A stretch of DNA of 64,000 nucleotides from Ferrimonas sp. YFM. Lineage in GTDB: Bacteria; Pseudomonadota; Gammaproteobacteria; Enterobacterales; Shewanellaceae. The notes beneath the pieces were generated by a model, which was not told the DNA's origin, did not search any database, and worked only from the letters and a program-made list of their open reading frames with translations. The translations under genes and the position numbers were made by a program. Shown piece after piece: positions 16,958-58,139 of this stretch (its first letter is position 1; each line of letters opens with the position of its first letter). The stretch is from positions 2,480,001 to 2,544,000 of the forward strand of contig NZ_AP027368.1 of NCBI RefSeq assembly GCF_030296015.1. Reading direction: 5' to 3'.

Positions 16958-17065
16958 CGCATCCCAAACAGAGCTTGGTGCAGTAGCAAAAGTAGGTCGG
17001 CAGTACCGCCGCCTTTTAATGCATTGACCTAGTACAACCGCTCCCAGAACCATTTAAGGAGTTTC

Positions 17066-18358
17066 ATGAGACACAACAAACAGGTAGCCGCCAACATCGA
17101 CGCCATCAAGGCCGATGTGGAAGCCGCCACCAGTCAAGCCGACCTGATTCGGGTGATCCGCTCGGTACAGAACCACCCGGGCCCACTGGACTACGATGAT
17201 CGCATCGCTGCCACCATCAAATGGTTGCTGCTGTTCGCCGGCACCATGGGTCTTTACCTCACCGCCTCTTCCGGCGGTTTTCATGGCGATATTGGCTTTT
17301 TTCTCGATCTGGCGATGAACTTCTCCAGTGCCTGGGTTCCCGCCATCGGCGTCGTGCTGTTGGCCAAAAGGCTGGAGAAAAAGGGCAAGGTACTGCCGCT
17401 GCCCGATTCGATAAACCGCCAATGGCTGCGCCTTGGCCTCATCGGCGTCGCCGCCACCGCTTTGTTTGCCGTACTGCCCTTCTGGGCCTACGCCTACTGG
17501 ACGGTGATCTACACTCTCATTGGCCTTATCAGGCTGGTGGGTGTCCTGATTCTGTTGGACGACTACCCCATCGGACAGGAGATCACCCTGGGCATGCTGA
17601 TCATCGGCGCCGGCCTGTGGATGTGGCAGGGCAAGCGATTGCATTGGCGCGAACCGGTGTCTGACCGCATCCAACTGCTGGACAGCCTGTTCAACAACAA
17701 CCTGAAGCCGGTGAAAGTCAGTAAATCCGGCAAGGCTCAGGAGTTTGGGAATAAGTTCAGGGAATTTGACCGCGGTAACCACAGACGGGAGATTGAGGCA
17801 CTGTATCAAGGAAGCTACAAAGGCAAGGTGCATCAGTTCGGTTTCCAGCTCTACCACTTCCACTTCGTGGATAAGCGCACCGAGACCTACAGGGACTCCG
17901 AAGGCAACACCAAGACCCGCACCACCTATCACCACTACGACCGTCACGGGTTACTGGTGCGCTTCCCCTTCGCCAAGTCAATCAGCCTGGACGGAGACCG
18001 CCGAATCAAGTTTGATGGGATGCCCTACTCCGCCGCTTCCAACGAGTTTAACCGTCACTTCAAGGTTCGGGCTCAAGAGGAGATGCAAGCCGCCCGGCTG
18101 CTGAGTCCGGCGGTCGTCGAGCAGCTGTGCAACATAGGTGAGAGCTATCGCAGCCCGGTGATTGAGATCAACGCCGATGGCGAGATGTGCATCGCCTTTG
18201 ACAACGACGACCTGCTGACACTGAAACGCCAGTACGGCCTGGAGAAGCCCGAGGCCTTTGCCAAGGAAATAGCCGGTCACGCCAAGCTGGAGAAGCTGGA
18301 TACGCTGCTTAAGACCGTCCACGACCTGATGCGTTTAAACGACAACAACTTTGCTTAA
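17066..18358 (+). CDS. DUF3137-like membrane protein, second of a tandem pair
   Basis: 430 residues, with the same plan as its neighbour: a conserved head (HNKQVAANIDAIKADVEAAT), membrane spans (about residues 50-190), then a soluble domain with YHFHFVDKRTETYRDSEG and FNRHFKVRAQEEMQAARLL. The soluble domain and the linker (VSDRIQLLDSLFNNNLKPVK) are far better conserved between the two copies than the membrane part. AAGGAG lies five bases before the ATG. The gene ends 46 bp before the lemA start. Confidence 0.65.
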   Translation: MRHNKQVAANIDAIKADVEAATSQADLIRVIRSVQNHPGPLDYDDRIAATIKWLLLFAGTMGLYLTASSGGFHGDIGFFLDLAMNFSSAWVPAIGVVLLAKRLEKKGKVLPLPDSINRQWLRLGLIGVAATALFAVLPFWAYAYWTVIYTLIGLIRLVGVLILLDDYPIGQEITLGMLIIGAGLWMWQGKRLHWREPVSDRIQLLDSLFNNNLKPVKVSKSGKAQEFGNKFREFDRGNHRREIEALYQGSYKGKVHQFGFQLYHFHFVDKRTETYRDSEGNTKTRTTYHHYDRHGLLVRFPFAKSISLDGDRRIKFDGMPYSAASNEFNRHFKVRAQEEMQAARLLSPAVVEQLCNIGESYRSPVIEINADGEMCIAFDNDDLLTLKRQYGLEKPEAFAKEIAGHAKLEKLDTLLKTVHDLMRLNDNNFA

Positions 18359-18404
18359 AGCGCCCTGCACTGAGCGCAGAGCCGACCATTACGAGAGACA
18401 CCTT

Positions 18405-18977
18405 ATGAATGAAGCAACTCTGATCATCATCGCCATCCCCCTGCTGCTGGTTGTGGCGGTTATCCTCATCTACAACAGCATCGTGGGGCGCTACAACGCC
18501 GTGGATCGCGCCTGGGCCTCGGTGCTAACCCAGGAGCGCCAGAAGAACAAGATCATCCCTCACGTCGAGAAGATGGTGGAGCAGTACAAGCTGCATGAAG
18601 CCTCCGTACTGACCGAGGTGACCAAGCTGAGAAACGCCATCAGCGAGCTGGGTCAGGGCGGTGTGGACGCGGCCAAACTGGCACTGACGGAGAAACACAC
18701 CGCCGGTCTTCTGCAGGGCCTGAAGGTAGCGGTTGAAGCCTACCCGGATCTCAAAGCCTCCGACACCTACCTTAAGGTGATGGCGGAGATCTCCGAGCAA
18801 CAGGAGCAGGTGGGCGCCGCCATCCGCATCTTCAACCGCAATGTGGAAGAGTTCAACAACGGCATCCAAATGTTCCCCGGCTCTCTGGTCAACGCCATGC
18901 TCAACCGTAAGCAGCCCATCAACAGCTTCACCGACGCAGAAGCTCAGGCTGGCTTCGACTACAAACCCAACCTGTAA
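18405..18977 (+). CDS. lemA: LemA family protein
   Basis: 190 residues. One N-terminal span (LIIIAIPLLLVVAVILIYN) is followed by the LemA signature (YNAVDRAWASVLTQERQKNKIIP) and the long helical domain ending QMFPGSLVNAML. LemA proteins are membrane-anchored helical bundles of unsettled role. Its partners here are two DUF3137-like proteins, an association seen in other bacteria. A strong terminator follows. Confidence 0.9.
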   Translation: MNEATLIIIAIPLLLVVAVILIYNSIVGRYNAVDRAWASVLTQERQKNKIIPHVEKMVEQYKLHEASVLTEVTKLRNAISELGQGGVDAAKLALTEKHTAGLLQGLKVAVEAYPDLKASDTYLKVMAEISEQQEQVGAAIRIFNRNVEEFNNGIQMFPGSLVNAMLNRKQPINSFTDAEAQAGFDYKPNL

Positions 18978-25252: not shown

Positions 25253-26029
25253 CTAGAAGCCCTTGTAGTCACGCCATCTGTAGCCGGGCAGTTGAGACTC
25301 TTCAAAGCGGTAACGCTGACCGTCGTACTTCAGGGTATAACTGTGGCTTCGAGTCTTATCCTGTTGACGATGGATCGGCTCAAAGTAAACCTTACCCTTG
25401 GTTTTTACCCTGATGTCGGCAAAGCCATAGTGTTTGGCGCTGAGCATCTGCAACTGGGATTTTCCGACCTCTTTCTCCCAACGCTGGTCGTCACCGCAGT
25501 CCTTGCCCTCATGCACCCTGGAGAACGCCATGGGCAGATTCTCCACCACCCGGGTCAGGATATTGTTGTGGTACACAAAGAGGTTGAAGAACTGGCCTCG
25601 GTAATCACGGGCGCACTCCGGCTTACGACCGGTGTTGAGCCGAACACCAAAAGCACGCACATCCTGATTCAGGGCGTAGTTGGCGGTATCCAGCCAGATG
25701 CTGTCCGGCCGTACCTTGGTGACACTGTCCTCCTGGATCTCCTGCTGAAACTTGGCCAGCACCTCATTGGTGCTGCTGTCCATCATCACAGTGTGCCACT
25801 GGTAGGTGCGCTCCCCGACCCGGCCACCATCAGTCCAGACATAGTAGGAAGCCAGGGTCAGTTCAGGCCGGTTGGGCAGAGCCTTACACACCGGCCAGGA
25901 GAGGGGGCCGAAAAACCGCTTATCCTCCTCCAGAGAGTTCAGTTGATCCGGTGTGCAGCTTTGGGCCGCCATGGCCATGGGCGCGGCCAACGTCAGTCCG
26001 GCAGCCAGGGTTAACAGGGTTTTGCTCAT
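25253..26029 (-). CDS. Secreted protein, paralog of the adjacent upstream gene
   Basis: 258 residues with a signal peptide ending near MAMAAQS. It contains several Cys (CTPDQL, PVCKAL, ECARDY, DCGDDQ) that could form disulphides. It shares with the next protein the blocks YALNQDVRAFGVRLNTGR, QFFNLFVYHNNIL and a closing LKYDGQRYRFEESQLPG. I know no family. The AAAGGACAAGGG stretch before the ATG serves as ribosome site. Likely in one operon with the paralog and lipoprotein upstream. Confidence 0.7.
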   Translation of the reverse strand: MSKTLLTLAAGLTLAAPMAMAAQSCTPDQLNSLEEDKRFFGPLSWPVCKALPNRPELTLASYYVWTDGGRVGERTYQWHTVMMDSSTNEVLAKFQQEIQEDSVTKVRPDSIWLDTANYALNQDVRAFGVRLNTGRKPECARDYRGQFFNLFVYHNNILTRVVENLPMAFSRVHEGKDCGDDQRWEKEVGKSQLQMLSAKHYGFADIRVKTKGKVYFEPIHRQQDKTRSHSYTLKYDGQRYRFEESQLPGYRWRDYKGF

Positions 26030-26049
26030 CCCTTGTCCTTTGATTGTGC

Positions 26050-26859
26050 TCATTGTTGCCACCACTCCTTGGAGGGAAGCTCTTCCCAGATCACCGGATA
26101 GCGGTGGCCATTAAACTTGAGGGTGGTTTCAAACTGGCGGGTTTCCGGTTTAAACGACTCCTCCCACTGGCCGGTGTCGTTTTCGTCCACCTCTTGCTGA
26201 GCCAGTTCGTCGTAGGTCTCATACAAGGCGGTGGTGGTCAGTTTGAGATCGCGATAGCCGTTGGTTTTGCTCTCCAGCAAGGTCAGGCGGCCCTCACCCC
26301 GGGCGGTCCTGCTGTAGTCGTAGCGACTGCAGGGGCTGCCGTCCACCACCAGGTCCTGCTTCAACGGCAGGTGCTTGAGCACCGGCTTGAGCTTGTTGCC
26401 CTCACGCACGAACAGGGTGACAAACTGGTCGCGGCCTACATCACGGCAGTAGGCATCGCGGCCCAGATCGATGCGAACGGCGAAGGCGTTGGTGGTGTCA
26501 TTGAGGGGGTAATCGGCCTTGTCCACGTAGAACACCTCGCCCTCCAGCTCCTCCTCCAACTGGATGTTGTTGTCTTCCCAAAGGTTCAAGGTGACCGAGG
26601 CCACCACCTCCGGCTTGTCGGCCTTGGCCAACACCACCCGCCACAGCTGATTCTCTCTGCCGATGCCGGAGTCCAGTCCCCAGGTACGGTAGGTGATCAC
26701 CCTCAGGGAGTCGTCGGCAGGATAGGCACCGCAGTTGCCGAACATGCCGCCGCCAAACTTATTGGTGTCCTCTTCCCACACCCACCAATCGTTGTCGGTG
26801 CATTCGGCAAAGGCACTGGTGCTGAGCATCAGCGCCGACAGGATTAACGCTCGTTTCAT
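26050..26859 (-). CDS. Secreted protein, paralog of the adjacent downstream gene
   Basis: 269 residues with a clear signal peptide (MKRALILSALMLSTSAFA). Cys residues (ECTDND, FGNCGAY, YCRDVG, PCSRYD) line up roughly with those of the paralog, and YPLNDTTNAFAVRIDLGR matches its counterpart. It ends with LKFNGHRYPVIWEELPSKEW. The ATG overlaps the stop of the lipoprotein gene by four bases. Probably periplasmic; function unknown. Confidence 0.7.
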   Translation of the reverse strand: MKRALILSALMLSTSAFAECTDNDWWVWEEDTNKFGGGMFGNCGAYPADDSLRVITYRTWGLDSGIGRENQLWRVVLAKADKPEVVASVTLNLWEDNNIQLEEELEGEVFYVDKADYPLNDTTNAFAVRIDLGRDAYCRDVGRDQFVTLFVREGNKLKPVLKHLPLKQDLVVDGSPCSRYDYSRTARGEGRLTLLESKTNGYRDLKLTTTALYETYDELAQQEVDENDTGQWEESFKPETRQFETTLKFNGHRYPVIWEELPSKEWWQQ

Positions 26860-27701
26860 TCAAACTCTCTCTTTCCTTTTACGGCTCGATAGACGCTGGC
26901 CCGGTAGCCACGACCAGGCACGCCCCTGCGCAAGGGGACGCTGTAGTTGGACTCGGGGCGTGGGGCGTAATCGAGCAACTGCGGGGTGGCGTAGTAGAAC
27001 ACCCCCATGTACTGCTCACCCAGGTCATCCTGGGCCAGCAGGTCGTATTGTTGGTTATAGGGGTGCACCGGCAGCGGGCCGACCTGTTCGCCAAGCTTGT
27101 CGGCAAGACCCAGATTGGCGCGGGCCGCGCCGCCATTCTCCACCCAGTTGGGGCGCAGCTCACCGCTATTCTCCCGCTTCAAAGGCATCAGGTAATAGTC
27201 CACCATCATGGACGGGTGAGCTACCCTGGCCAGCAGGTCCTGGCGCTCCAGCAGCCGCAGACGCTCGGCCTCACCCTCTTTCTGCAGGTGTGGGGCGTTG
27301 ATGCCCATCACCAGGGTTTCGCACTTGGACTCGTGCCACAGACTCAGCTCCTGGCACACCTTGCGCCAAGCCGGGGTGCGAATCATCACCAGGGCGGCGC
27401 CATGGCCGTCGGCCTCGAAATGGCTTCCCAGAATCTGAAACTGGGTCTGCTTGCGGCTCTCGAGAAAACGGGCATCGAAGCTGGCACTGCGCTCCCCTTC
27501 GCAGTAAAGCAGTGGATAGGGGGTCTTATTGCCCATCCTGGCTGCGTCATACATCCGCTTGCGCTCGGCCTGGTCGTACTGGCACAGGTTGAGCTGGCCC
27601 AGCAGGGTTTGAATTTGCTGCTGATCGCCACCTGGCATCAGGGCGCTGCACCCTGAAAGGGCCAGGGCCGCCAAGGCGATGAGTGGGTCTCTTATTTTCA
27701 T
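26856..27701 (-). CDS. Lipoprotein, unknown, first gene of an envelope cluster
   Basis: 281 residues. The lipobox LSGC at residues ~17-20 follows a hydrophobic leader, so the protein is likely lipid-anchored in the outer or inner membrane. The rest has no family I recognise; an internal stretch resembles a disordered, Gln- and Glu-rich helix region. The ATG at 27701 is preferred to the GTG one codon earlier. It is coupled by ATGA overlap to the secreted paralog. Confidence 0.7.
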   Translation of the reverse strand: MKIRDPLIALAALALSGCSALMPGGDQQQIQTLLGQLNLCQYDQAERKRMYDAARMGNKTPYPLLYCEGERSASFDARFLESRKQTQFQILGSHFEADGHGAALVMIRTPAWRKVCQELSLWHESKCETLVMGINAPHLQKEGEAERLRLLERQDLLARVAHPSMMVDYYLMPLKRENSGELRPNWVENGGAARANLGLADKLGEQVGPLPVHPYNQQYDLLAQDDLGEQYMGVFYYATPQLLDYAPRPESNYSVPLRRGVPGRGYRASVYRAVKGKREFE

Positions 27702-27725
27702 CACATCTTTGCTCGGTATCGCCGC

Positions 27726-30563
27726 TTAATCTTCCAGAATTTCACAATCGGGGAACGCATCGCGGAATTTTTGTGGTGCCCGAATCGACTCATAGCCATG
27801 CTCCGGGTCATAGCCCCAGCGATACAGGGGCTCAGACGCTCGGCGCAGATCCAATCTCTTTAAGTTCTTTAGCTTGAACAGCACCTTGGGAAACTCGGCA
27901 AAGTGATTGAATGACAGGTCCAGCTCCTCCAACTCAATCAAGCCGGCCAGCTTGGCAGGCAGTTTGTCCAGATGGTTAAAGTGAAGGTTGAGCTTCTTCA
28001 CCTGCTGGTATCGCTCGAAGTTTGCAGGCAATGCTTCCAGGTAGCAGTTGTGCAGATCCAACTCGGTAATCAGGGTCTGCTGCGGCAATGCTTCGGGCAA
28101 TCTGGTCTTAGGCCGGCCCAGGTCAAAACTGTCCTGCATGTAGATGTCCGGCGAGCCGTGACAATTGGTCAAGTACTCCTCGTCGGCTCCCTCAAGGATC
28201 CGGGCAAAGCCACAGCCCTTGTGCCAGTTGAGGCACTCACCCTCCACCAGTCCAGAGGTGATGGCCTGGCGACGATCGCACTCCTCTTTTTGGGTCAGCA
28301 GCCAGATCAGCCCCTCTCCGAAGCGATCGAAGTAGGCCTTGGAAAAATCGATGCACAGCGCCCTGCCCCAACGCTTGGTCAGCCCTTTGAGTTTCTTGAG
28401 CATGGGGCCTTCACCTCTGGGGTGGCCCTCAAAGGTCAGGCCTCGCAGTTCCTCTTCGAAGAAGATGCGGTCGGTCACCGCCAACTGAAACAGCTCATCG
28501 CCCCTGCCCGCCAACAGCTGCTGAATCGATTTTCGCAGCGCCTTGTCACTGGTGGTCTTGAGGATCAGAAACAGCGGCATCCACATCGCTTCGGTCACGC
28601 CGCCCTGTGCCAACATCTCCACCGCCACTCGATGAGAGCCTTCATCCGGGGAGTGCAGCATGCTCATCACCGTATCGATCATGCCGCTGTCCACGGCCTG
28701 CTCCTGCTGCAAAAACTGAGGGGCCGCCTGCTCAAACCATTGGCTTAACGCGGTATCGTCAATCAGCCGATGGGCATCCGGGTCCAACCTATCGGTCTGC
28801 TTGGGGTTGGCACCCAGCAGCACGTGAGTGACCTTGTCATCCAGTTTCTTACTGAGAGTAAAGCCCAGTTCCTGCGCCTTGGCCTTTAGCTCGGTGGCCT
28901 TGATGCCACTCTTGCCACAGACAAAGAGCACGGTGTCGCTGCCCAGAGGACGGTCGGCCACCGCCTTTTCGGCACTCTTGCGGAGCCAGGCATGGGCGTG
29001 CTTCTTAAACGGTGAGTATTTGGCTTCCAGGAAGGTCAGATGGAAACGCCCCTCTGCCTCGGGCAGGTCCCTGGGTTTTGGCGCATGATAGACCAGCTGC
29101 CAATAGGCTTCTCGCTGTGCCTGAGTCAGCGGCGCGTTCAGCAAAATGCTGCGCTGCTTATTCAGCGCCTCACTGCGAGCCACCTGGTCGTAGATGCCAA
29201 AGTCCACCTCCATATCTGCAGGCAGTTGCATCAGGAAATCGGTACGATCGCCCCGTTGCACCGTCAACCTCAGGCGCAACTCTTTCAGCGCTGGAGCGGT
29301 CAGCAGGTCCTCCAAACGAGGCAAAGTGGTGCAAGGGCCGTGGTGGCTAAACTGCTCTATCTGCACTTCGGTCAGCGCCGTCATGGCACTCAAGTCTCCC
29401 AACTTCTCTACCGGACCGTTGCTGAGCCTTAACCGGCTGATGCCCTGATGCTGACGAAGGCTTGCCGGAAGTTCGGCATCGGTTATCCCCTCCAGCTGCA
29501 GTCGGCTCAGGTTGGTCAGCTCCGTCAACAACCGCGCCTCGCCCAGCTCTCCGGCATCACGCAGTTCCAGCCCGGTCAGTTCAGGAGAGTGCCTCAATCC
29601 CCCGAGTTCGGCCAAGGGGAGTCCGGTGGCAAACAGGTGGGTCAACCTGGGCAGGTGGAGATCGCCAATGACCCCTTGCCCTTGGGCAAACAGGTAGAGG
29701 CTGCTCAGGGTGTTGATGGGGGCCAACAGCTTCGCCAGGTTGTAGCTGGCTTTCTGGGGCAGGAACATCAGTCGTTCGACGCTGCCCAGTTGGGCAAAGA
29801 GATCGTCGGCAACGGTCACGCCCTCTCGGCCGATGTTTACGTGCAGCTCCTTGACGGAGTTGGCCCGAATCAGACCACCGCCCGCCACCTCCAGATTGTC
29901 CGCCTCGATGCGCAGCTCGTCGAGATCCGACTTTCCTGCATCGATAAAGTGATCAAGTGTCACGCTGCCCCGGGGGGAGATGGCCACCTTTTTCATGGAA
30001 TCGGGCAGCAACAACTGCTCCACCACCAAGTTGCTGGGCTCGCTGCCGTAATGGAGGGGGTAGAGATGCAGTTCGGTGAGCCCTTTGGCACTGGCCAGGT
30101 TGAGCGCCAGGCGCTCCACCTGATCCACACGCAAGTGCAGAGACTTGAGGCCACTTCCCTCTGCCAATTCGAGGACCACCGGGCCTTGCTCCACGTCCAG
30201 TTGCAGCTCCTGCAAAGCAGGGCAGTAAGCCAGATGGGCAAACTGACTGGGGTCATTCATCTTGGCGCCGCGAAGCACCTTGAGGTTGGCGGCCATCTCT
30301 GGCTCAAGCCCCGCCAGCTCCAGAGGGTTATCTTCACAGAACAGGCGCTGCAGTTTGGGAAAGCTGCGAAACAGTTCGGCATCGATGGGCCGCAGCGGCT
30401 CCAGATAGCTGCCAAAGGCGATCTCCTCCAGTTCGGGAAACGCCCGGGCCAGTTCTTCCCAGCCCGGCTGACTATCGGACACCCGATAGCGCAAACTGGT
30501 GATCTCGGTGTTGACCTTGTCCAGGATGTCCAGGTCGTAGTCGTGCAGGGTGAGTTTACTCAT
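27726..30563 (-). CDS. LRR-BRCT protein, paralog A
   Basis: 945 residues, no signal peptide. Residues 1 to ~500 are degenerate leucine-rich repeats (LEELDL-like units such as LQELQLDVEQGPVVLEL). A BRCT domain spans about 540-615 (TVLFVCGKSGIKATELKAKA, then FTLSKKLDDKVTHVLLG). A helical, HEAT-like stretch follows (about 633-690, LAQGGVTEAMWMPLFLIL). Four canonical C-terminal repeats (about 834-905, ITELDLHNCYLEALP, LEELDLSFNHFAEFP) end the protein. BRCT domains bind phosphopeptides or DNA ends in other proteins; LRRs bind proteins. It follows paralog B by 22 bp, and its partners are probably the divergent VWA and MoxR-type genes. Confidence 0.8.
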   Translation of the reverse strand: MSKLTLHDYDLDILDKVNTEITSLRYRVSDSQPGWEELARAFPELEEIAFGSYLEPLRPIDAELFRSFPKLQRLFCEDNPLELAGLEPEMAANLKVLRGAKMNDPSQFAHLAYCPALQELQLDVEQGPVVLELAEGSGLKSLHLRVDQVERLALNLASAKGLTELHLYPLHYGSEPSNLVVEQLLLPDSMKKVAISPRGSVTLDHFIDAGKSDLDELRIEADNLEVAGGGLIRANSVKELHVNIGREGVTVADDLFAQLGSVERLMFLPQKASYNLAKLLAPINTLSSLYLFAQGQGVIGDLHLPRLTHLFATGLPLAELGGLRHSPELTGLELRDAGELGEARLLTELTNLSRLQLEGITDAELPASLRQHQGISRLRLSNGPVEKLGDLSAMTALTEVQIEQFSHHGPCTTLPRLEDLLTAPALKELRLRLTVQRGDRTDFLMQLPADMEVDFGIYDQVARSEALNKQRSILLNAPLTQAQREAYWQLVYHAPKPRDLPEAEGRFHLTFLEAKYSPFKKHAHAWLRKSAEKAVADRPLGSDTVLFVCGKSGIKATELKAKAQELGFTLSKKLDDKVTHVLLGANPKQTDRLDPDAHRLIDDTALSQWFEQAAPQFLQQEQAVDSGMIDTVMSMLHSPDEGSHRVAVEMLAQGGVTEAMWMPLFLILKTTSDKALRKSIQQLLAGRGDELFQLAVTDRIFFEEELRGLTFEGHPRGEGPMLKKLKGLTKRWGRALCIDFSKAYFDRFGEGLIWLLTQKEECDRRQAITSGLVEGECLNWHKGCGFARILEGADEEYLTNCHGSPDIYMQDSFDLGRPKTRLPEALPQQTLITELDLHNCYLEALPANFERYQQVKKLNLHFNHLDKLPAKLAGLIELEELDLSFNHFAEFPKVLFKLKNLKRLDLRRASEPLYRWGYDPEHGYESIRAPQKFRDAFPDCEILED

Positions 30564-30585
30564 CAAAAATTGGGTCCTGTTTGGC

Positions 30586-33396
30586 CTATTGGTCCTGAAG
30601 GATTTCGCACTCTGGGCAAAGGTCCAGGAACGCCTGGGGCACCTGCAAACGGCGATAGCCGTTGCCGTAGTCACCATCCAGGTCTGGACGGGTGGCTCGG
30701 CGTATGTCCAGCCGCTTAAGCCAGGGCATCTTCAGCAGCACCTTGGGAAATTCGCGAAAGTGATTAAAGGAGAGGTCCAGCTCCTGAAGCTGACCGAATT
30801 TGGCCAGAGAGGCCGGCAGTGCATCCAGGGCGTTGTGGGCCAGGCTCAGGTCGGTGATCTCGCTAAAGTGTTCGATTCCCTTGGGCAGAGCGGTCAGCAT
30901 GCAGTTGCCCAGGTCCAGGCGACGAATGGTGTGGCGAGTCGCCAGCTCTTCGGGGATATCAATTTTCACCGCCCCCAACAGGCCATCGTTGTTGTGATAG
31001 AACACAGGGTGCCAGTGCAGGTTGATGGGTGAGTCCTTGTCCCAGAACTCGTGAACCTGGTCCAGGCCCATGCCCCGTCGCCAGTTCAGGCACTCTCCCT
31101 CCACCAGGGACTCCAGAATCGCCAGTCGCTGATCGGCCGGCTGCTTCTGCAGCATCACGTAGATAAGGCCCTCTGAGTAACGCCGGAAGAAAAGACGGGC
31201 AAACTCCATGCACAGGGACTCGCCCCACTTCTTACGCTGGCGCTTGAGCTTATCCACCATCACCCCCTGCCCCTTAAGGTTGCCGTAGTCATCACGGCCG
31301 CGGCAGTTCTGGAACAGGATGCGGTCATTGACCGCCAGCTGGAAGGCTTCATCCCCCATGCCGGCGAGCAGGTGTTTAATCTGTTTTCTAAAGGCATTGT
31401 CCGTGGTGGTTTTCAGGATGAAGAACAGTGGCAGACGCATCGCTTCGGTGACGCCCCCCTGCTCCAGCATCTGCACCGCCACCTTGTGGCTGGCCTCGTC
31501 CGGCGATGCCAGCATCTCCAGCACGCTGCCTTCCATAGGCTCCCCACCCTCTTGTTGCAGGAACTTGGGCGCCTGGGCTTCGAAGCACTTCTGCAGCACC
31601 GCGTCATCGATAACGGCATAGCGCTCGGTATCGATGAGGTGCACCTCCTTGGGGGCGGTTCCCAGCAGGATGTGGCTGACACTGTCATCCAGTTTTTTGC
31701 TGAGAGTGAAACCCACTTCTTCGGCCTTAGCCTTGAGTTCTGACGCCTTAAAGCCGCTGCGCCCAGCCACAAACAGGGTGCTGCCCCCTCCGAAGGGTCG
31801 GCTAAGCTGATTCTCCTGGGCCAGTTGACTGAGCCAGGCCTTATGCTGAGCCTTGAAGCGGTTGTGTTTGGCAGCCATCATCACCAGATGGAAACTGGCC
31901 GGCATGGCGGGCAGTTCGGCAGCTTTGTACACAGGCGCCAGTGCCTTCAAGAAGGTCAGCGTCTGCGCGTCACTCAAGTGAGACTGTTTGAAAATCTCCC
32001 AAGCTTTGGCCAGTTTCTCATCGCTGATGTCCAGATCCAGATCCGCTGGCAACTTGACCCAGGCAGGATCGAACTGCTTCAGTTCAATGTCCAGGCGCAG
32101 TGATTTCAGCGCCGGCACAGTCAGCAGGTCTTCCTGTGCAGGCAGCGCCTGCTGATCGTGTTTCCAGGGCTGAATCCACACCTCTGAGAGCGCGCTCATC
32201 CGGCTCATTTCACCCAGACGGGGCAGCGTCACTGACAACAGGTTCAGCCTCTCGATGCGGCCATTGTTGCGCACCTCTGATGGCAGCTCGTCCATCTCCC
32301 CACCTTGCAGAGTCAGGGAGGTAAGCTCGGGCAGCTGGGGGAAGCTCTCCACCCGCCCCTTGACCCTCAGGTTAGTCTGCTGCAGCTTGGGACTGTGGTT
32401 CAGCCACTGCAATTGATCCCCCTGCAGCCCAAACATCCAGGCCTCACGCAGTGAGGGCAGCTTCAAATTATTGGCCTGCTCCAGGACACCGGAGTAATTC
32501 ACATAGTGTAAGCGTTCCATGGCTATCCCCTCGGGGAACAGCAGACCGGGAATCGGCGTATCTTCACACCTGATCTCAGCCCTATTGGCCCGGGTCAGCC
32601 TGGAAAACAGCTCTGGTGGCAAAGGGGCGGTTTCACCGGTGAGGGTCAGGTTAAGTTCCTCCACCTCGGTCAGGTCTCCGAGAAGATCCCCTGGCAATTC
32701 GGCCTGGCCCAGACTCAGGAACAGCTTGCTGAGCTTGTGGTTCTGCCCCAGGATGGCACCGGGCAGACGGCCGACGCACTGGGCATTGAGGGTGAAGCTG
32801 TCCAGACTGTCGGGCAACGTGAGCGCCGACACCGACAGTGCCTCGGGTCCATCGTCGTAATAGTCCAGTTGCCCCAGAGCCACTGAGGTGAGGGCACTGC
32901 CCTTGAGCTGGCAGTTCAGGGTTCTCACCTGAGACTCCAATCCGATGTTCAGCACCTTCAGCGACGAACCGGCATCGATCTCTATCCGGCAGTCGGACTG
33001 ATACAGCCGCACCGTCAATTCGGCCAGCTTGGGCAAACTGGTAAGCAGCGCCAGATCGTCGCACCGGCACTGACTCAGGGACAGAGTCTCAATGTTGGCC
33101 AGGGAATCTTCGGTAACGCCACTTAACACAACCGACAGCCTGTCCCTGCTTCGGGTGGGGGTTTCCAGCCCAGAGAGCTTGGGGAAACTCTGGAAAAATT
33201 CGGCATTGATCTCTTTGCGACCGGCCACCCGGCCGAGATCCTCAAAGGTCAGTTTGCGCAGGTTGGGAAACGCCCGGGCAAGCTCAGCCCAGCTCTCCAT
33301 GGGTTCATCGCTGTCATACACCAGGTGTTCAACATCAGGGTGCACCGAAGCCAACAGGGTTTCGTGGTTATAGTCTTCCAGTTCCATGCGCTGCAT
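30586..33396 (-). CDS. LRR-BRCT protein, paralog B
   Basis: 936 residues. It has the same domain order as paralog A: degenerate LRRs to ~500, BRCT at about 539-610 (STLFVAGRSGFKASELKAKA, FTLSKKLDDSVSHILLG), helical repeats (LEQGGVTEAMRLPLFFIL), a conserved ECLNWRRGMGL segment, and four C-terminal LRRs (LQELDLSFNHFREFP). The BRCT and C-terminal parts match A closely, while the N-terminal LRR arrays have drifted, which fits changed partner choice after duplication. GGAGG lies four bases before ATG 33396. First gene of the minus-strand unit. Confidence 0.8.
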   Translation of the reverse strand: MQRMELEDYNHETLLASVHPDVEHLVYDSDEPMESWAELARAFPNLRKLTFEDLGRVAGRKEINAEFFQSFPKLSGLETPTRSRDRLSVVLSGVTEDSLANIETLSLSQCRCDDLALLTSLPKLAELTVRLYQSDCRIEIDAGSSLKVLNIGLESQVRTLNCQLKGSALTSVALGQLDYYDDGPEALSVSALTLPDSLDSFTLNAQCVGRLPGAILGQNHKLSKLFLSLGQAELPGDLLGDLTEVEELNLTLTGETAPLPPELFSRLTRANRAEIRCEDTPIPGLLFPEGIAMERLHYVNYSGVLEQANNLKLPSLREAWMFGLQGDQLQWLNHSPKLQQTNLRVKGRVESFPQLPELTSLTLQGGEMDELPSEVRNNGRIERLNLLSVTLPRLGEMSRMSALSEVWIQPWKHDQQALPAQEDLLTVPALKSLRLDIELKQFDPAWVKLPADLDLDISDEKLAKAWEIFKQSHLSDAQTLTFLKALAPVYKAAELPAMPASFHLVMMAAKHNRFKAQHKAWLSQLAQENQLSRPFGGGSTLFVAGRSGFKASELKAKAEEVGFTLSKKLDDSVSHILLGTAPKEVHLIDTERYAVIDDAVLQKCFEAQAPKFLQQEGGEPMEGSVLEMLASPDEASHKVAVQMLEQGGVTEAMRLPLFFILKTTTDNAFRKQIKHLLAGMGDEAFQLAVNDRILFQNCRGRDDYGNLKGQGVMVDKLKRQRKKWGESLCMEFARLFFRRYSEGLIYVMLQKQPADQRLAILESLVEGECLNWRRGMGLDQVHEFWDKDSPINLHWHPVFYHNNDGLLGAVKIDIPEELATRHTIRRLDLGNCMLTALPKGIEHFSEITDLSLAHNALDALPASLAKFGQLQELDLSFNHFREFPKVLLKMPWLKRLDIRRATRPDLDGDYGNGYRRLQVPQAFLDLCPECEILQDQ

Positions 33397-33778
33397 GGAG
33401 CCTCCTTACTGCAGTGTTCTGAACATCTGTGCCCACGCAGGCACAACGACTGGGAGGAGCCACCGCCTGGAGCCTCCTCGCATGAAAAAAATGGTTATCG
33501 TCGACTTCGGCCGTAATGCTGCTCGCCAGAGCCTGGGGAACTAGCTTTGAAGTGGGTAGTGCGAGGTGTCATCTCGGGATCTGGGCCCCTGAGCCTACCG
33601 GGCGTCACGTTAAAATCACCAAACATCGGATTCAACGAAATGCTCCTAAATATTGCGCTAACGAATCGGAAGTGGATTGACCACCTGGGCATTGTATGGA
33701 TAATTCACCTTAAATCATATAGTTAATCCGGATTAACCCATAAACAACGCCACACTGTCACGAATCCTGGTCAAGCTG
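33397..33778. promoter_or_regulatory. Divergent promoter region of the LRR-BRCT and VWA/MoxR units
   Basis: 382 bp between two divergent transcription units. It holds a perfect 14-bp palindrome, TTAATCCGGATTAA, at 33723-33736, about 42 bp before the VWA gene. I see no convincing gene here; a 65-codon minus-strand frame has no support. Confidence 0.5.
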
Positions 33779-34942
33779 ATGCTCAAAGAACCGTTTTACG
33801 GTCATTACCTGAGCAGCTTTCACAAGGCCTCCCATGAGCAAGGCGACACAGACTCACCTCCGCTTGAGATAAAACTCAAAGATAACAGTAACATTCAGTT
33901 TGTATGCCAGTTACAAAGCTGGAATGCACTGAATGAGGACCAGCAACTGGGTGCCCTGAAACATGAAGCGCTGCACCTGGTATTGGGGCACCCCTTCGGT
34001 CGTCACAGTTACGCGGACTCCGCCCGATTCGATTTGGCCGCGGATCTAGTGGTCAACCAGTACATTGAACCCCATCAGTTAACAGACAACGCCCCGACTC
34101 TGGAGAGGGTCAACGCCTGGCTTTCGCGGCAAGGACAGCCTGGCCTCGAACCCCATCGTGAGCTGGCCTACTACTATGGGCAACTCCCTGCCAGCGCCCA
34201 GATGCCGGGCGCCAATGTTGACGGCGCCGGAGCGGGACACCAGAACTGGAACGCCCTGGGTCAGTTGCAACAAGCCAGCCGTGCCCTGCTGGAGCAGCAA
34301 CTGGACAGCAAGCTCGAACAGAGCGCTCAGCGCACCGAGCAGGTCAACGCCCGGGCCCGGGGCCTGCTGCCAGCTAATGTGCTCGAAGCACTGGAGCAGG
34401 CGATCGCCCGGCGCCGACCCACGGTAAACTGGCGCCGACTGCTGAGGCTGTTCGCCTCCAGCGCCCGGCGCACCTCAGTCAAGAACACCCTGAGGCGCCC
34501 CTCAAAACGCTACGGCACCACCCCGGGCACGCGCATTCAGCCCCATCAGCACATCCTGGTGGCCGTCGATACCTCCGCCAGCGTCGACGATGGCCAGCTG
34601 CAGCTGTTTTTCGAAGAGCTGCACCACATCTGGCGCGCCGGTGCCCAGCTGACCGTGGTCGAATGTGACACTCAGATTCAGCGGCAATACCTCTACCGCG
34701 GCGAACCACCCGCAGAGGTCCAGGGCCGCGGCGGCACCTGCTTCGACCAGCCCATTGAGTGCGCCAACCGGCTGCGGGTCGACGCCATCGTCTACTTCAC
34801 CGATGGCGAGGCACCACCGCCGGAGGTGCCTGCCCGCGCCCCATTGCTGTGGCTGATCCACAGCGACCGGGTTGCGCCCATCAACACACCACTTCGCCAC
34901 TGTGGCCGGGTGATCCCCATGGCCCCGGCCGAACACAGATAA
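33779..34942 (+). CDS. DUF2201-type putative metallopeptidase with VWA-like domain
   Basis: 387 residues. The N-terminal metallopeptidase-like half carries the zinc motif HEALHLVLGH (residues ~62-71). The C-terminal half is VWA-like: VAVDTSASVDDGQL gives the metal-ion-adhesion DxSxS pattern, and VYFTDGEAPPPE a further VWA signature. These proteins pair with MoxR-type ATPases, as here. The ATG at 33779 has no good ribosome site, and upstream in-frame codons (reading ILVKL before it) fit the family, so a non-ATG start between 33737 and 33779 is possible. Ends ten bases before the ATPase gene. Confidence 0.8.
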   Translation: MLKEPFYGHYLSSFHKASHEQGDTDSPPLEIKLKDNSNIQFVCQLQSWNALNEDQQLGALKHEALHLVLGHPFGRHSYADSARFDLAADLVVNQYIEPHQLTDNAPTLERVNAWLSRQGQPGLEPHRELAYYYGQLPASAQMPGANVDGAGAGHQNWNALGQLQQASRALLEQQLDSKLEQSAQRTEQVNARARGLLPANVLEALEQAIARRRPTVNWRRLLRLFASSARRTSVKNTLRRPSKRYGTTPGTRIQPHQHILVAVDTSASVDDGQLQLFFEELHHIWRAGAQLTVVECDTQIQRQYLYRGEPPAEVQGRGGTCFDQPIECANRLRVDAIVYFTDGEAPPPEVPARAPLLWLIHSDRVAPINTPLRHCGRVIPMAPAEHR

Positions 34943-34951
34943 GAGTTATCC

Positions 34952-36061
34952 ATGACACACAGCCACAACTACAGCTACTACGGTTTAACCTGCCCCGCTC
35001 CGGAAGTTCGGCGCTTCATCGAGCACCTGTTGCCTCAGGCCGGACAACGCAGCGTCCCGGTGTGCATCTGGGGTCGTCACGGCATCGGCAAGACCCAGAT
35101 GGTGGAGCAGATCGCCAGAGACAAGGGGATGCAGTGGCGAGCCATCGCACCCGCCCAGTTTGAGGAGATGGGCGATCTGCTGGGAATGCCGCAGATTGCT
35201 GAAGATGAACAGGGCGAGAGCATCACCCGGTTTGCCGCGCCTCACTGGGTGCCCACCGAGCCCGGTCCCGGGATCCTGCTTATCGACGACGTCAACCGCG
35301 CCGACGAGCGCATCCTGCGCGGCATCATGCAGCTGCTGCAGAATCATGAACTGATCAGTTGGGCCCTGCCAGAAGGGTGGCAAATTGTGCTGACCGCCAA
35401 CCCCGACGGCGGCGATTACTCAGTCACCCCCATGGACGACGCCATGCTCACCAGGATGATGCACATCACCATGGAGTTTGATCCCAAGGCCTGGGCCCTG
35501 TGGGCCGAAGGCGCCGGCATCGATCCCCGGGGCATCGACTTTGTTCTGACTTATCCGGAGCTGGTCAGTGGTGAACGCACCACTCCCCGCTCCCTGGTGC
35601 AGTTTTTCCAGGCGATCGCCCCTATCGAGGACCTCAAAGAGCAGCTGCCTCTGGTGAACATCCTGGCCCGCTCCTGCCTGGATGAAACCACCTGCAGCGC
35701 CTTTATCGCCTTCGTGGAGCAAAACCTCAGCAAACTGGTCTCTCCCCAGGCCATGGTGGACGCCAAGGCCTTTGATAAGGAGATCGCCCCGCAGATTGAT
35801 CGCATCGCCGGTGGCAAAGCCCCGAGAATAGACATTCTGGCAACCCTGTGCACCCGCTTGCATCACTACCTTAAAGTCAGCGGCATCAAACTCAAGCCGG
35901 CTCAGGTGGCCAACATCCAGGCCTTCCTGAAGATGCCCCTGCTGCCCAACGACCTGCGCCTTGGGCTGATGCAGGATCTGATGAACAGCGGAAATGCGTC
36001 TCTGAAAGGGGTTTTGGCCGACGCCGAGCTGGCCAAGCTCTTTTTGACCAACGCCGCCTAA
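34952..36061 (+). CDS. MoxR-type AAA+ ATPase partner of the VWA protein
   Basis: 369 residues. Walker A is GRHGIGKTQ, Walker B GILLIDDVNRAD, and the sensor 1 region IVLTANPDGGDYSV. It has the insert-bearing MoxR/dynein-like AAA_5 arrangement. Such ATPases are thought to remodel complexes together with VWA proteins. The tandem with the DUF2201 gene is a known two-gene module; what is unusual here is the neighbouring pair of LRR-BRCT proteins. Confidence 0.88.
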   Translation: MTHSHNYSYYGLTCPAPEVRRFIEHLLPQAGQRSVPVCIWGRHGIGKTQMVEQIARDKGMQWRAIAPAQFEEMGDLLGMPQIAEDEQGESITRFAAPHWVPTEPGPGILLIDDVNRADERILRGIMQLLQNHELISWALPEGWQIVLTANPDGGDYSVTPMDDAMLTRMMHITMEFDPKAWALWAEGAGIDPRGIDFVLTYPELVSGERTTPRSLVQFFQAIAPIEDLKEQLPLVNILARSCLDETTCSAFIAFVEQNLSKLVSPQAMVDAKAFDKEIAPQIDRIAGGKAPRIDILATLCTRLHHYLKVSGIKLKPAQVANIQAFLKMPLLPNDLRLGLMQDLMNSGNASLKGVLADAELAKLFLTNAA

Positions 36062-42660: not shown

Positions 42661-43529
42661 ACTGCCCTCACTGTTTGAGAGTGATCTGGTGTTGAGCCCG
42701 CCTCCCCCACCAAAGAGAAAAAGGCGCTCCACAGACACCGCACCAAGGCCTTCAATCCCCGGGTAACCAGTTCTCTCTCTTCAGAATATCCCCTTAGGGG
42801 CCATTATTGTAGGCGCATCCGCCGTCCGGGGGACGCCCCGCCTAGTGACGTAATGGGTGGCAGGTAATGAGGAACACAGAGAGTAAAAACCTACTTTGCA
42901 CGCTTCTTTAAAAGAACTTACAACCAACTCGTCAAAAACCACCAAAACGGCTGAATCGGCAAAATTTAATGTTAACGCCTTGTATGGCATGCCGTCATTG
43001 AGCTTAATTTTCAATCGCAAAAGTGTAATTAAGTTACAGGGCGAGCACAGCAGATCAGCACGGCAATCCATCCACAGGCGCATTAGAAATTTGCGATATA
43101 AACTTCAGGAATTCTGAACACACAAACTCAACACCGGCGCGGGCTGGAGCGAAGATAAAAAAAGGCAGCGCTGATGAGACGCCGCCTTTTGCAGGGAAAT
43201 GATAATGAACCTAACACCGTAGAATTGTAGTTAAGTTCACAAATCATCTTACTCATTACAGACTCAATTGGAACTGGCATTTGTCACATATTTTCACTAA
43301 ATCAGGCTCGATTGTCTGTTTTGCAGCCAGAAAACGCTACCAGTCGATAACAAAACATCTCTCATCACGGATTTGGCGAAAAGTTTGATACGAAACGCAT
43401 GATTTAAACAGGCAACCATCCACATCTGCGTGAGAGCTGCATCACCAATGGAAAACTACTGTGGAAAGTAACATTGTCATCACACACCAGGGACTGGTGT
43501 ACTGTCGGGTCTGAAGTTGGAGACCTCTC
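42661..43529. other. Long intergenic region with a terminator-like hairpin
   Basis: 869 bp without a gene I can support, and AT-rich from about 42890. A hairpin at 43160-43190 is AAAAGGC-A-GCG/CGC-C-GCCTTTT with loop CTGATGAGA and A/T tracts on both sides, as in a bidirectional terminator. No protein gene lies next to it, so a small RNA may end there. A 100-codon minus-strand frame at 42781-43083 has no family likeness. ACTGTGGAAAGT at 43459-43470 also occurs inside the element shared by the two cobalamin operons. Confidence 0.55.
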
Positions 43530-44108
43530 ATGTCCCTTATCTACTGCCGCCACGGCAGAACCCAGTGGAATGAACTGGGCACCTTGCAAGGCACTTTTGA
43601 CAGCCCGCTTACAGAAACTGGCAAAGACCAGGCTCGTGACAGCGGCCGTCTGGCCGCCCTCCATGCACCCCAGCTGATCTACTGCAGCGAACTCGGCCGT
43701 GCCCGGCACAGTGCCGAACTGGCCAACCTCGCCCTCTCTGTGCCTGTGCTGACCTCGCCCCTGCTTAACGAACGCTGCTTTGGCGCCCTGCAAGGGCTGG
43801 ACAGAACCACTCATCCAAAATGGTGGCAGGCTTACACCCACAGGGAGCAACAGGACTGCATGGCCATACCCGGCTCCGAAGCCGCATCCGAGGTAGCTTA
43901 TCGAATCAGTGCGTTCTGGACTGAGATGCGCCAGATGCACGGCGATACGCGCATTCTGGTGGTGGGTCACGGTGAGTGGCTTAAGATTGCCCTGAGCCTG
44001 GCATGGGGCATCCCCCCTTGGAGCGGCGTGCCTCCTTTGCCGGATAATGGCCAGGTGTGGCGATTGGAGGAGATGCGCGGACTGATGCCACAGCAGCAGT
44101 CCGCGTAA
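43530..44108 (+). CDS. cobC: Histidine phosphatase, candidate alpha-ribazole phosphatase CobC
   Basis: 192 residues. The RHGRTQWN motif holds the catalytic His and Arg, CSELGRARHSAEL the second Arg, and VVGHGEWLKIAL the second His; ERCFGALQG is the usual acidic motif. Such phosphatases include CobC, which dephosphorylates alpha-ribazole phosphate in the lower-ligand branch of cobalamin synthesis. Its place beside the corrin operon supports that, though other members of the family are possible. Convergent with cobA, with four bases between stop codons. GGAG precedes the ATG. Confidence 0.8.
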   Translation: MSLIYCRHGRTQWNELGTLQGTFDSPLTETGKDQARDSGRLAALHAPQLIYCSELGRARHSAELANLALSVPVLTSPLLNERCFGALQGLDRTTHPKWWQAYTHREQQDCMAIPGSEAASEVAYRISAFWTEMRQMHGDTRILVVGHGEWLKIALSLAWGIPPWSGVPPLPDNGQVWRLEEMRGLMPQQQSA

Positions 44109-44112
44109 GAAT

Positions 44113-45438
44113 CTAGGCTGCCACGCGGCTGGCCTCTGGTGCCGCATCGTTGACCCTGAAGCCAAGGCGCTGCGCCTCAGAACGCACCCGTTCACAACCG
44201 CTGAACACCAGGGCATCGGGGCTCAAGAGATCATGCTCCACCAGATAGTGGAACGCCTTCTCCTCCTCAGCGGTAACCATGGAAGCCTGAACCAAGGGGT
44301 AAACAGGCTCAATCACGCGGACCTGACGCAGGCACAAGCCTTCAGAGGCATACTTGGTGATGCTCAAAGCCTCTGAAACGGGCTCTTCCGCCTGATTGAT
44401 GAACAGCCCCTGTTGCGCCATCCAATGACAGGCCTGCTCAGTGCCCGACAGCCGCCAATGCCAATGACGGCAGTCCAACTGCTGCTCCAGACAAAGGCGG
44501 TACAGGCTCTGAGCCGCTTCCCGGCTGTCCAGCCACAGTTCCTTGGCTGCCAGCAACTTGTGCCAACCTGGCTCATCCAGTGCAACGCTCTGTTCAATCT
44601 GAGGCGCCTGAACCACTACTGCGCCCTGCTGGCGCATGGACTCCAACAGAGCAGAGTCCCCACCGCAATCGAGCACCTGAACCCCGCTGAGAGGCAGTTT
44701 GCCTCGCCAGTCCAGCTCTTCAGACAAGGACACCACCTGCCCCATCACCACCAACATGGGATCCCCATTATCAAAGTCGGCAATGCGCTCACCTATCTGC
44801 TTCAGTTCTGCGGTGATCATTCGCTGCTTATGACTGGTGGCGGCTGCGATCACCGCCACCGGCGTGCCTGGGTCCCTGCCTCTCTCTATCAGTTCCCTGG
44901 CATGCTGAGCCAGTTTTTTCGCCCCCATGTAGAGCACCAGGGTGCCTGAGCTCTGGCCCATCGCCGCCCAGTTGCTGATGGTGGTGGATGCCCTGTGGCC
45001 GCTGGCAAAGGTCACATCAGATGCCATGCCATTGCTGGTCAGCGGAAAACCGGCGTAGGCCGCCGCCCCCAATGCCGAGCTGATGCCGGGCACCACCTCA
45101 TAGTCGATGCCATGATGCTGCAAACAGCGACACTCTTCGGTGGCGCGGCCGAAGATGAAGGGATCGCCGGCCTTCAGGCGCAGCACACTGCGCCCGGCCA
45201 GTGCCTGCTCCACCACTTCGGGGTGCATACCATACTCGATGCTGGTGCCGCAGTAGCCCCGGTACCCCACGGGGATCATGGTGGTGCCCGCAGGCACCAG
45301 TGAGAGCACCGCCGCATCAATAAGCAGGTCATAGCAGACCACGTCACACAGATGCATCAGTTCATGGGCGCGGCGGGTCAACAGGCCAGGGTCACCTGGG
45401 CCGGCTCCCGCCAGATAGACCTTTCCCGGCTTAGTCAT
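44113..45438 (-). CDS. cobA: Uroporphyrinogen-III methyltransferase with degenerate HemD-like tail
   Basis: 441 residues. Residues 1-250 are a complete SUMT: VYLAGAGPGDPGLLT, VVCYDLLIDAAVLSL, GYRGYCG, RLKAGDPFIFGR, EVVPGISSALGAAAYAG and LVLYMGAKKL. It makes precorrin-2 from uroporphyrinogen III. Residues ~255-441 look like a worn uroporphyrinogen-III synthase: SGVQVLDCGGDSALLESM, VVQAPQIEQ, DSREAAQSL and a closing DALVFSGCERVRSEA. CobA-HemD fusions are known, but here the tail has little of HemD's conserved core. ATG 45438 follows GGAGG and overlaps cbiF by eight bases. Last gene of the riboswitch-controlled operon. Confidence 0.9.
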   Translation of the reverse strand: MTKPGKVYLAGAGPGDPGLLTRRAHELMHLCDVVCYDLLIDAAVLSLVPAGTTMIPVGYRGYCGTSIEYGMHPEVVEQALAGRSVLRLKAGDPFIFGRATEECRCLQHHGIDYEVVPGISSALGAAAYAGFPLTSNGMASDVTFASGHRASTTISNWAAMGQSSGTLVLYMGAKKLAQHARELIERGRDPGTPVAVIAAATSHKQRMITAELKQIGERIADFDNGDPMLVVMGQVVSLSEELDWRGKLPLSGVQVLDCGGDSALLESMRQQGAVVVQAPQIEQSVALDEPGWHKLLAAKELWLDSREAAQSLYRLCLEQQLDCRHWHWRLSGTEQACHWMAQQGLFINQAEEPVSEALSITKYASEGLCLRQVRVIEPVYPLVQASMVTAEEEKAFHYLVEHDLLSPDALVFSGCERVRSEAQRLGFRVNDAAPEASRVAA

Positions 45439-47040: not shown

Positions 47041-47132
47041 GGTGGTGCCTCCTCAAATCAGGTTTATTTCTCTGTGTGGACCGCTGCCAATCAGCAGACC
47101 ACTGTTCAATGGGTTTGCCGGTACCCGGGGCA

Positions 47133-52462: not shown

Positions 52463-52530
52463 TTGAAGCGTTCCACTAGAATCTTTGGAAGCTCAACGAC
52501 AGGGGGCGGGTGCAATGATCTCTCACTACT

Positions 52531-52550
52531 GCCGGGTAGGCCCGCCTGGC
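52531..52550 (-). promoter_or_regulatory. Hairpin downstream of riboswitch 1 with conserved loop
   Basis: The RNA reads GCCAGG-CGGGCCTA-CCCGGC. A matching hairpin with the same loop lies after riboswitch 2 (57920-57940); both share GGCGGGCCTACCC. In cobalamin riboswitches a loop here often kisses L5 of the aptamer, so this is probably the expression platform. It lies 69 bases before the cbiD start and does not cover a ribosome site. Confidence 0.6.
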
Positions 52551-52558
52551 GTTTAGCG

Positions 52559-52691: not shown

Positions 52692-52700
52692 ACTGTGCCC

Positions 52701-52751: not shown

Positions 52752-52791
52752 TGCCCGTGAAGCTGATCAGCCTGGGCGAACCGAATTCTGT

Positions 52792-56822: not shown

Positions 56823-56835
56823 GGCTCTCCAAAAT

Positions 56836-56858: not shown

Positions 56859-56865
56859 GAAGGGA

Positions 56866-57940: not shown

Positions 57941-57952
57941 GATCCAGCACGA

Positions 57953-58134: not shown

Positions 58135-58139
58135 GGGCC

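Follow-up and report, generated by a model that had tools for sequence, protein, structure and literature searches.

MoxR-type AAA+ ATPases and proteins with a von Willebrand factor A (VWA) domain occur together as remodelling pairs, for which a logic of ring formation, capture by the metal ion-dependent adhesion site (MIDAS) and remodelling has been proposed (PMC7159879). In the sections of that study available to us (Kaur et al. 2020), such pairs form the centre of ternary systems with VMAP, iSTAND, FtsH and beta-propeller subsystems, most of them in multicellular prokaryotes and argued to act against invaders. RavA-ViaA and NorQ-NorD are remodelling pairs of the same kind, and jumbo phages encode MoxR together with a VWA domain fused to an N-terminal metallopeptidase (PMC7824862, in part). 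Here we describe a four-gene cassette in a 64,000-nucleotide stretch of the Ferrimonas sp. YFM genome (NZ_AP027368.1, positions 2,480,001 to 2,544,000; this whole stretch is referred to as the window), which lies within a single-contig 4.66 Mb genome. The cassette encodes a MoxR-type AAA+ ATPase, a DUF2201-VWA protein and two giant proteins that combine leucine-rich repeats (LRR) with a BRCT domain. It is a real, linked and mobile unit, which we class as a new variation on the MoxR-VWA ternary machines, with the LRR-BRCT proteins as its proposed recognition and docking subunit. On balance, we favour by a modest degree its operation as an ATP-driven three-component machine in which the LRR-BRCT proteins are dedicated recognition or adaptor subunits.

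The general likeness to the ternary systems that was suggested in a first-pass annotation of this DNA is upheld by comparison with the available sections of PMC7159879: there is a MoxR AAA+ protein with Walker A and B motifs, a VWA protein with the MIDAS aspartates, and a third linked protein of the type proposed to complete the complex. There are also departures. The third protein, with LRR, BRCT, helical and LRR sections, is not one of the four types in the headings of that study (our own comparison by Pfam), and the VWA protein carries one fixed DUF2201 metallopeptidase in place of the variable effectors described there. The main text of PMC7159879 does not contain BRCT, WGR or DUF2201, and LRR occurs once, in a reference. 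The jumbo-phage pair has the same core architecture as the cassette but is proposed to function in virion assembly, and the LRR-BRCT protein was not found in phage records, of which 70 carry distant DUF2201 genes and 326 distant MoxR genes; the phage relatives of the VWA and AAA proteins are less than 30% identical (best 20 rows per search). Neither a DUF2201 peptidase nor a giant LRR partner was found in the available descriptions of RavA-ViaA and NorQ-NorD. The combination was not found described among the matches listed in a search of the open-access literature by title or abstract start, and DUF2201 occurs in four of the papers searched, none of which deals with its function judged in the same manner; PMC12839542, PMC8195603, PMC10910872 and PMC4275035 deal with MoxR-VWA systems or with BRCT or LRR proteins, and the portions available describe no such partnership. 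A proposed relation to MolR/WGR-type clusters gained no support, as Pfam gives no WGR match at E ≤ 0.1.

The four proteins of the cassette

The first-pass annotation placed two paralogs of ~940 residues divergent from the VWA and AAA genes, and this arrangement is confirmed by the open reading frames (ORFs), by Pfam and by an alignment in which the two giants, LRR-BRCT A and B, are 39% identical over their full length (Table 1). The two minus-strand LRR-BRCT genes face the VWA and AAA genes across a 382-base gap; an alternative longer ORF for B, reaching position 30677, would overlap A. Pfam matches to A and B at E ≤ 0.1 are to LRR and BRCT families only. In A, LRR_4, LRR_8 and BRCT all score above cut-off (BRCT 25.7 bits, cut-off 21.3), and in B the LRR is above cut-off and the BRCT scores 18.7 bits in the whole protein, which is below 21.3, and 21.4 bits when the region is excised. 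All 24 members of the LRR-BRCT family have a BRCT match at E ≤ 1. The AlphaFold model of A, built on a 24-row alignment, has a mean predicted local distance difference test score (pLDDT) of 86.9 and a predicted template modelling score (pTM) of 0.59. LRR-type strands reach to about residue 457 in this model and are followed by an alpha/beta unit resembling BRCT near residues 534–612, by helices from 619 to 801 and by a second LRR block; its Foldseek matches include LRR proteins such as SHOC2 and TLR8. The helical repeat section proposed earlier thus appears as helices in the model, but it has no HEAT match in Pfam.

The two ends of the LRR-BRCT proteins have changed to different extents. Mean column entropy among the 24 proteins is 1.97 in the N-terminal LRR, compared to 1.10 in the BRCT, 1.19 in the helical section and 1.17 in the C-terminal LRR, and this contrast is reached by 3 of the 936 circular shifts, counting the unshifted one. 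A conserved BRCT and C-terminal part with a drifted N-terminal LRR had been noted in the first-pass annotation and is borne out, but variable recognition ends gain no support: the gene-wide ratio of nonsynonymous to synonymous substitution (dN/dS) is 0.02–0.15 between close copies and 0.08–0.13 for the LRR genes, with no sign of diversifying selection, and a hypervariable LRR was set aside as gaining no support from these values. Distant LRR-gene pairs have dN/dS of 0.12–0.40, with dS high or saturated. A short acidic tail, [IV]-[LQ]-x-D, lies inside the last 12 residues in 23 of the 24 proteins. The usual ligand of a MIDAS is an acidic side chain, which makes the tail a candidate to occupy this site.

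The AAA protein matches AAA_5 in Pfam with 25.1 bits (cut-off 22). Mean column identity is 87% among 12 aligned AAA proteins, in all of which Walker A (GRHGIGKT), Walker B (LLIDD) and R168, a likely arginine finger, are invariant. Its profile matches five distinct sequences in the PDB at 1e-3 (best 7.3e-14), all of them midasin (Mdn1/Rea1), so that midasin provides the only solved AAA relatives recognised by sequence at that threshold. Midasin assists ribosome assembly in eukaryotes, carries its AAA modules on a single chain, and is not known to have a metallopeptidase or an LRR partner; its MIDAS domain grips a partner, which the ring then strips off. We assign the cassette protein to the MoxR clade by Pfam, by profile and by its Walker motifs; PMC7159879 defines the clade by a helix-2 insert.

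The VWA protein matches both DUF2201 (66.6 bits) and DUF2201_N (44.2 bits) above cut-off. The 11 aligned VWA proteins align end to end, and therefore all share one N-terminal region (DUF2201_N by Pfam in the window copy). The HExxH residues H62, E63 and H66 are invariant in all 11, as are the MIDAS residues D264, S266, S268, T320 and D342. Its AlphaFold model is of moderate quality (pLDDT 74.6, pTM 0.53), and the best 50 of 600 structure matches are mostly VWA domains, including the midasin MIDAS domain with NLE1 (E 8.2e-3), with a chain of a B19V capsid entry in the top row. Translation probably begins a little upstream of the ATG at 33779, and in the window at none of the codons ATG, GTG and TTG, since the preceding codons are conserved in frame: codons for L-S-R-x-[LS]-V-[KR]-L directly precede this ATG in nine aligned loci, and within 33740–33780 the VWA frame is conserved upstream of the ATG, the stretch from the in-frame stop to that ATG being free of ATG, GTG and TTG codons. 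The start codon may be CTG or ATA. In the Photobacterium aquae cassette the conserved stretch is replaced by S-I-S-T-A-M-V-R-L.

Table 1. Positions of the cassette, its domains and associated features in the window
Feature	Position	Strand	Basis
LRR-BRCT A, 936 aa; order N-LRR, BRCT, helical section, C-LRR	30586-33396	-	ORF, Pfam, paralog alignment, AlphaFold, orthologs
LRR-BRCT B, 945 aa, paralog of A	27726-30563	-	ORF, Pfam, alignment
BRCT of A, about residues 534-612	31561-31797	-	Pfam and AlphaFold
BRCT of B, about residues 539-617	28713-28949	-	placed via alignment with A
DUF2201_N putative metallopeptidase and VWA protein, 387 aa counted from ATG	33779-34942	+	ORF, Pfam, alignments, AlphaFold
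MoxR/midasin-type AAA+ ATPase, 369 aa	34952-36061	+	ORF, Pfam, alignment, profile search
Promoter-like element, 43 bases	33677-33719	+	conserved alignment block in divergent gap
Lipoprotein-like gene (by eye), possible accessory	26856-27704	-	genus distribution

Linkage, distribution and transfer

The LRR-BRCT alignment was scanned against 84,980 species genomes and gave 17 loci, three of which (L033–L035) match the LRR part only and were dropped. The 14 that were kept represent 12 species (four Ferrimonas, three Vibrio, four Photobacterium and one Microbulbifer). The AAA gene is adjacent and in the same divergent layout in 11 of these 14 loci, and an intact VWA gene is present too in 10. The first-pass annotation had staked its proposal on such linkage to DUF2201/MoxR genes in other genomes, and both this and the MoxR-VWA pairing are supported. 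The exceptions to full linkage are in F. sediminum (L023), at two loci of P. aquae (L026 and L029) and in P. proteolyticum (L032), where the VWA and LRR genes are broken. There are one to three LRR-BRCT genes in each cassette, with three in F. aestuarii.

The distribution is sporadic. LRR-BRCT genes are in 6 of 97 genomes sampled from the genus, family and order (own genome included), all six within Ferrimonas, and in a class-level sample of 369 genomes only the window's own has one. Among 14 Ferrimonas genomes, the VWA gene is present in six (one is a 51-residue remnant with an internal stop) and the AAA gene in five; five genomes have all parts, one has one LRR-BRCT gene and the VWA remnant, and eight have none. 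Four of 227 Vibrio genomes have LRR-BRCT, one of which (G838) has a broken VWA gene and a broken LRR-B. The LRR-BRCT protein was not found in 72,556 plasmid records (E ≤ 1e-10) or in 50,697 phage records, where only generic LRR matches occur, in two; a phage or plasmid origin of the cassette was rejected on these grounds.

Comparison of DNA identities points to transfer of the cassette between families as one unit, because cross-family identity exceeds that within the genus. Between F. aestuarii and V. intestinalis, LRR-A, LRR-B, VWA and AAA are 91.1, 90.7, 88.3 and 92.4% identical (dS 0.34–0.52), as compared to 70.7, 72.2, 74.4 and 81.7% between F. aestuarii and the window species (dS 1.2–1.7). 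In the three named Vibrio species the cassette lies between rpsO and pnp (rpsO confirmed at L020 and L021, pnp at L020 and L024), directly after a hairpin and T-run behind rpsO (by eye). In cassette-free Vibrio genomes the rpsO-pnp gap is about 270–380 bases in all 10 that were checked, of 223. We note that this gap is the insertion site at four Vibrio loci (L020, L021, L024 and L102). The sporadic occurrence, horizontal movement and occasional breakage of the cassette suggest that it is an accessory unit for stress or conflict and not a housekeeping one.

A conserved element in the divergent gap

Alignment of the divergent gap from nine loci reveals an element that is conserved even where the remainder of the gap differs. 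It consists of TTGAC, 7 bases, GCATT[A/G]TATGGATAAT, 8 bases and AATCATA, a pattern that can also be written TTGAC-N7-GCATTRTATGGATAAT-N8-AATCATA. It resembles a sigma-70 promoter, with a -35-like hexamer at 33677–33682, a -10-like hexamer at 33699–33704 and a 16-base spacer; shuffled sequence yields sigma-70-like matches at least as often as the region does. Besides these hexamers, the end of the spacer and a downstream block are invariant too, and a 31-base core spans 33689–33719. The element is probably the promoter plus operator of an autoregulated cassette, whose expression it probably sets. Two sequences that may be inverted half-sites, TRTATGgAT and ATCATAYA, can be picked out by eye, separated by about two turns of the helix.

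The element was counted in all 12 full cassettes, three decayed cassettes and two LRR-only loci. Eleven of the 12 full cassettes, in four genera, contain the 43-base pattern without a mismatch (the window, F. aestuarii, F. kyonanensis, F. balearica, the Ferrimonas genome G013, three Vibrio, P. chitinilyticum, P. alginatilyticum and M. taiwanensis). Among decayed cassettes it is exact in Vibrio G838, has three mismatches in F. sediminum and is absent from P. proteolyticum; of the two P. aquae loci with LRR-BRCT genes only, L026 differs from it at four positions and L029 lacks it. A search of the 14 Ferrimonas genomes with up to three mismatches found a single copy of the 31-base core in each of the five cassette-bearing genomes (exact) and a single copy in F. 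sediminum (three mismatches), with none in the eight others and none for a reversed control. A global regulon was rejected since the core was found only at the cassette at this threshold, in a search with the full 31 bases and not with the 16-base part by itself. Two viral contigs fit a looser pattern, and carriage of the element by phage was also rejected: the match falls within a coding gene of the phage, and the stretches examined yielded none of the cassette genes, so that it is taken as chance.

Possible modes of action and the gene neighbourhood

The anatomy of the four proteins suggests a mode of action in which LRR-BRCT would provide recognition, VWA grip, AAA force, and DUF2201_N possibly cutting. 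The MoxR AAA+ protein would form a ring on which the VWA protein docks, with its MIDAS holding an acidic ligand. The slow-changing BRCT, helical and C-terminal LRR end would dock to the VWA-AAA core and the faster-changing N-terminal LRR would bind the target. ATP hydrolysis could then separate the adaptor-target complex or un-gate the metallopeptidase, which might cut the target or a regulator. Speaking for such a machine are the linkage in four genera, the joint transfer of the genes, the invariant motif residues, the midasin matches of the AAA and VWA proteins, the contrast in conservation between the two ends of the LRR-BRCT proteins, the nearly constant element, the acidic tail, the giants that follow some distant DUF2201-MoxR pairs, and the logic proposed in PMC7159879.

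Several observations weigh against this three-component machine. No metallopeptidase is named among the best 50 of 600 structure matches to the VWA model and no PDB sequence matches the VWA profile well, so that the case for peptidase activity comes from Pfam and the HExxH motif. The BRCT region matches solved BRCT domains weakly, the closest being TopBP1 (E 0.031). The two LRR-BRCT loci of P. aquae noted above (L026 and L029) have no adjacent AAA or VWA gene, in a genome that also has a full cassette (L030), and that full cassette lacks the element, with 10 mismatches at best. PADLOC-DB 2.0.0 has no match to LRR-BRCT A, LRR-BRCT B or the VWA protein, and matches the AAA protein only as a weak AAA (E 0.019).

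Further points on the same side come from distant DUF2201 loci. PF13203 is found in 9 of 299 genomes of the phylum (E ≤ 1e-8), and at the other eight, distant loci (seven of 18 kb and one of 5 kb) no LRR-BRCT gene was flagged alongside. The VWA profile found seven among 394 genomes of the order, two Ferrimonas and five distant ones; at each of the five distant loci an AAA gene adjoins VWA, and no LRR-BRCT was flagged. The DUF2201 core thus does not need LRR-BRCT, as 0 of 13 distant loci have one flagged. The ORF picker takes the longest frames, may prefer antisense ones in GC-rich DNA, and flagged an AAA gene beside VWA at only four of the eight phylum-level loci; because it can miss genes, gene absence at distant loci is weak evidence. 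A further MoxR-like AAA gene, beside CO-dehydrogenase-like genes (by eye), lies near one distant DUF2201-MoxR pair (L049, 12907–17625).

At three of the five distant order-level loci (L099–L101), whose core is ~23–27% identical to the window VWA protein in BLAST rows, the next gene encodes a protein of 821–990 residues. The 821-residue protein matches LRV (50.1 bits, cut-off 21.6) and HEAT (33.4 bits, cut-off 23.5), and the 990-residue one has weak LRV-type and DUF2336 matches below cut-off. These loci resemble the cassette in that genes for an AAA protein, a DUF2201-VWA protein and a giant stand next to one another, and are possibly analogous ternary systems, but they differ in their same-strand layout, distant core and non-homologous giant: profile comparison found no homology to LRR-BRCT, which also counts against the favoured machine, and the giants were rejected as LRR-BRCT homologs. 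A giant repeat partner of the DUF2201-MoxR pair may have arisen more than once, although three loci, two of them 94% identical, make this no more than suggestive. A bolder and distinctly tentative reading would make the cassette a fifth class of MoxR-VWA ternary system, in which paired LRR-BRCT receptors feed a ring ATPase and a metallopeptidase in an NLR-like design split over genes, autoregulated by its operator and spread as a cassette among marine bacteria, with LRR-BRCT and LRV/HEAT proteins as alternative recognition modules on one conserved peptidase core.

A role against phages is a narrower version of the three-component machine and compatible with it: the paired LRR proteins would sense an invader and AAA-VWA would activate the metallopeptidase to halt or kill the cell, as in an NLR on separate genes. 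The sporadic spread (the full set in 5 of 14 Ferrimonas, LRR-BRCT in 4 of 227 Vibrio), transfer as a unit, damaged copies in three genomes (F. sediminum, P. proteolyticum, Vibrio G838), variation in paralog number from one to three, and the counter-invader role argued for ternary systems in the available sections of PMC7159879 all fit this proposal. However, the lack of a PADLOC match counts against it too, the Vibrio neighbours are the housekeeping genes rpsO and pnp, selection is purifying gene-wide, and the plasmid and phage records described above yielded no LRR-BRCT protein. The conflict role proposed in the first-pass annotation is thus not supported and remains a guess, and we regard the anti-phage version as possible but doubtful.

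An assembly or metal-insertion chaperone of the NorQD type, with AAA-VWA maturing a client enzyme and LRR-BRCT proteins serving as client adaptors, is unlikely. Studied MoxR-VWA pairs act in this way in the portions of the reports available (PMC9976466, PMC13036017), and the AAA protein is very conserved, but no metabolic client gene was recognised beside the cassette in more than one genus (neighbours mostly assigned by eye, few scanned), and the cobalamin genes of the window were not recognised at other loci. A DNA-damage module, in which BRCT would bring the complex to the ends of DNA or to repair proteins that are phosphorylated, with the peptidase removing DNA-bound proteins, is more improbable still. 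SprT-type proteases provide an analogy for such removal, and the BRCT match in every family member, its weak affinity to TopBP1 and the conserved HExxH are consistent with it; against it, the BRCT is single and weak, Pfam finds no other repair domain, and the confinement of the element core to the cassette in the 14 Ferrimonas genomes, at up to three mismatches, gives no regulon link. Secreted adhesins or effectors lying merely beside an unrelated AAA-VWA pair, as weak NCBIfam matches to secreted LRR effectors might hint, are a very improbable reading, since those matches are far below cut-off with their best stretches in the C-terminal LRR, no secretion signal is apparent by eye, and the same linkage is seen in four genera and was kept through transfer from one family to another.

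Scattered bacteria and phages carry pairs of DUF2201-VWA and MoxR genes, for which a tested function was not found in the portions of the literature available. With its dedicated giants, intact motifs, compact movable unit and private element, the cassette opens the DUF2201-MoxR group as a whole to functional tests. Should the LRR proteins prove to be sensors, bacteria would have here an LRR receptor system whose core is a protease together with a remodelling ATPase.

Other genes lie near the cassette. Behind the LRR genes comes the lipoprotein-like gene, which among the 14 Ferrimonas genomes is found in the five with the full cassette and in no other; it was not found in the Vibrio, Photobacterium or Microbulbifer loci examined. 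Together with two PA3715-family proteins it occupies 25253–27704, on the downstream side of the LRR genes. The stretch 15683–18974 holds a LemA-type gene and a pair of DUF3137-type genes, none of which NCBIfam names above cut-off. DUF3137-type genes are near the cassette in six Ferrimonas loci (the window, F. aestuarii, F. kyonanensis, F. balearica, G013 and F. sediminum) and in Microbulbifer (L031), and all of these loci have a LemA-type gene except the F. aestuarii stretch examined (calls by Pfam for L031, L054 and L023, and by tblastn for the others); neither type was found in the Vibrio or Photobacterium loci examined. A cobalt or other metal chelatase was considered and rejected, as no cobalamin biosynthesis gene was recognised in the gene lists of other loci (nearly all by eye). 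In the window, cobalamin biosynthesis and uptake-type genes extend from 43407 to 58145, with two cobalamin riboswitches at 52553–52692 and 57943–58145.

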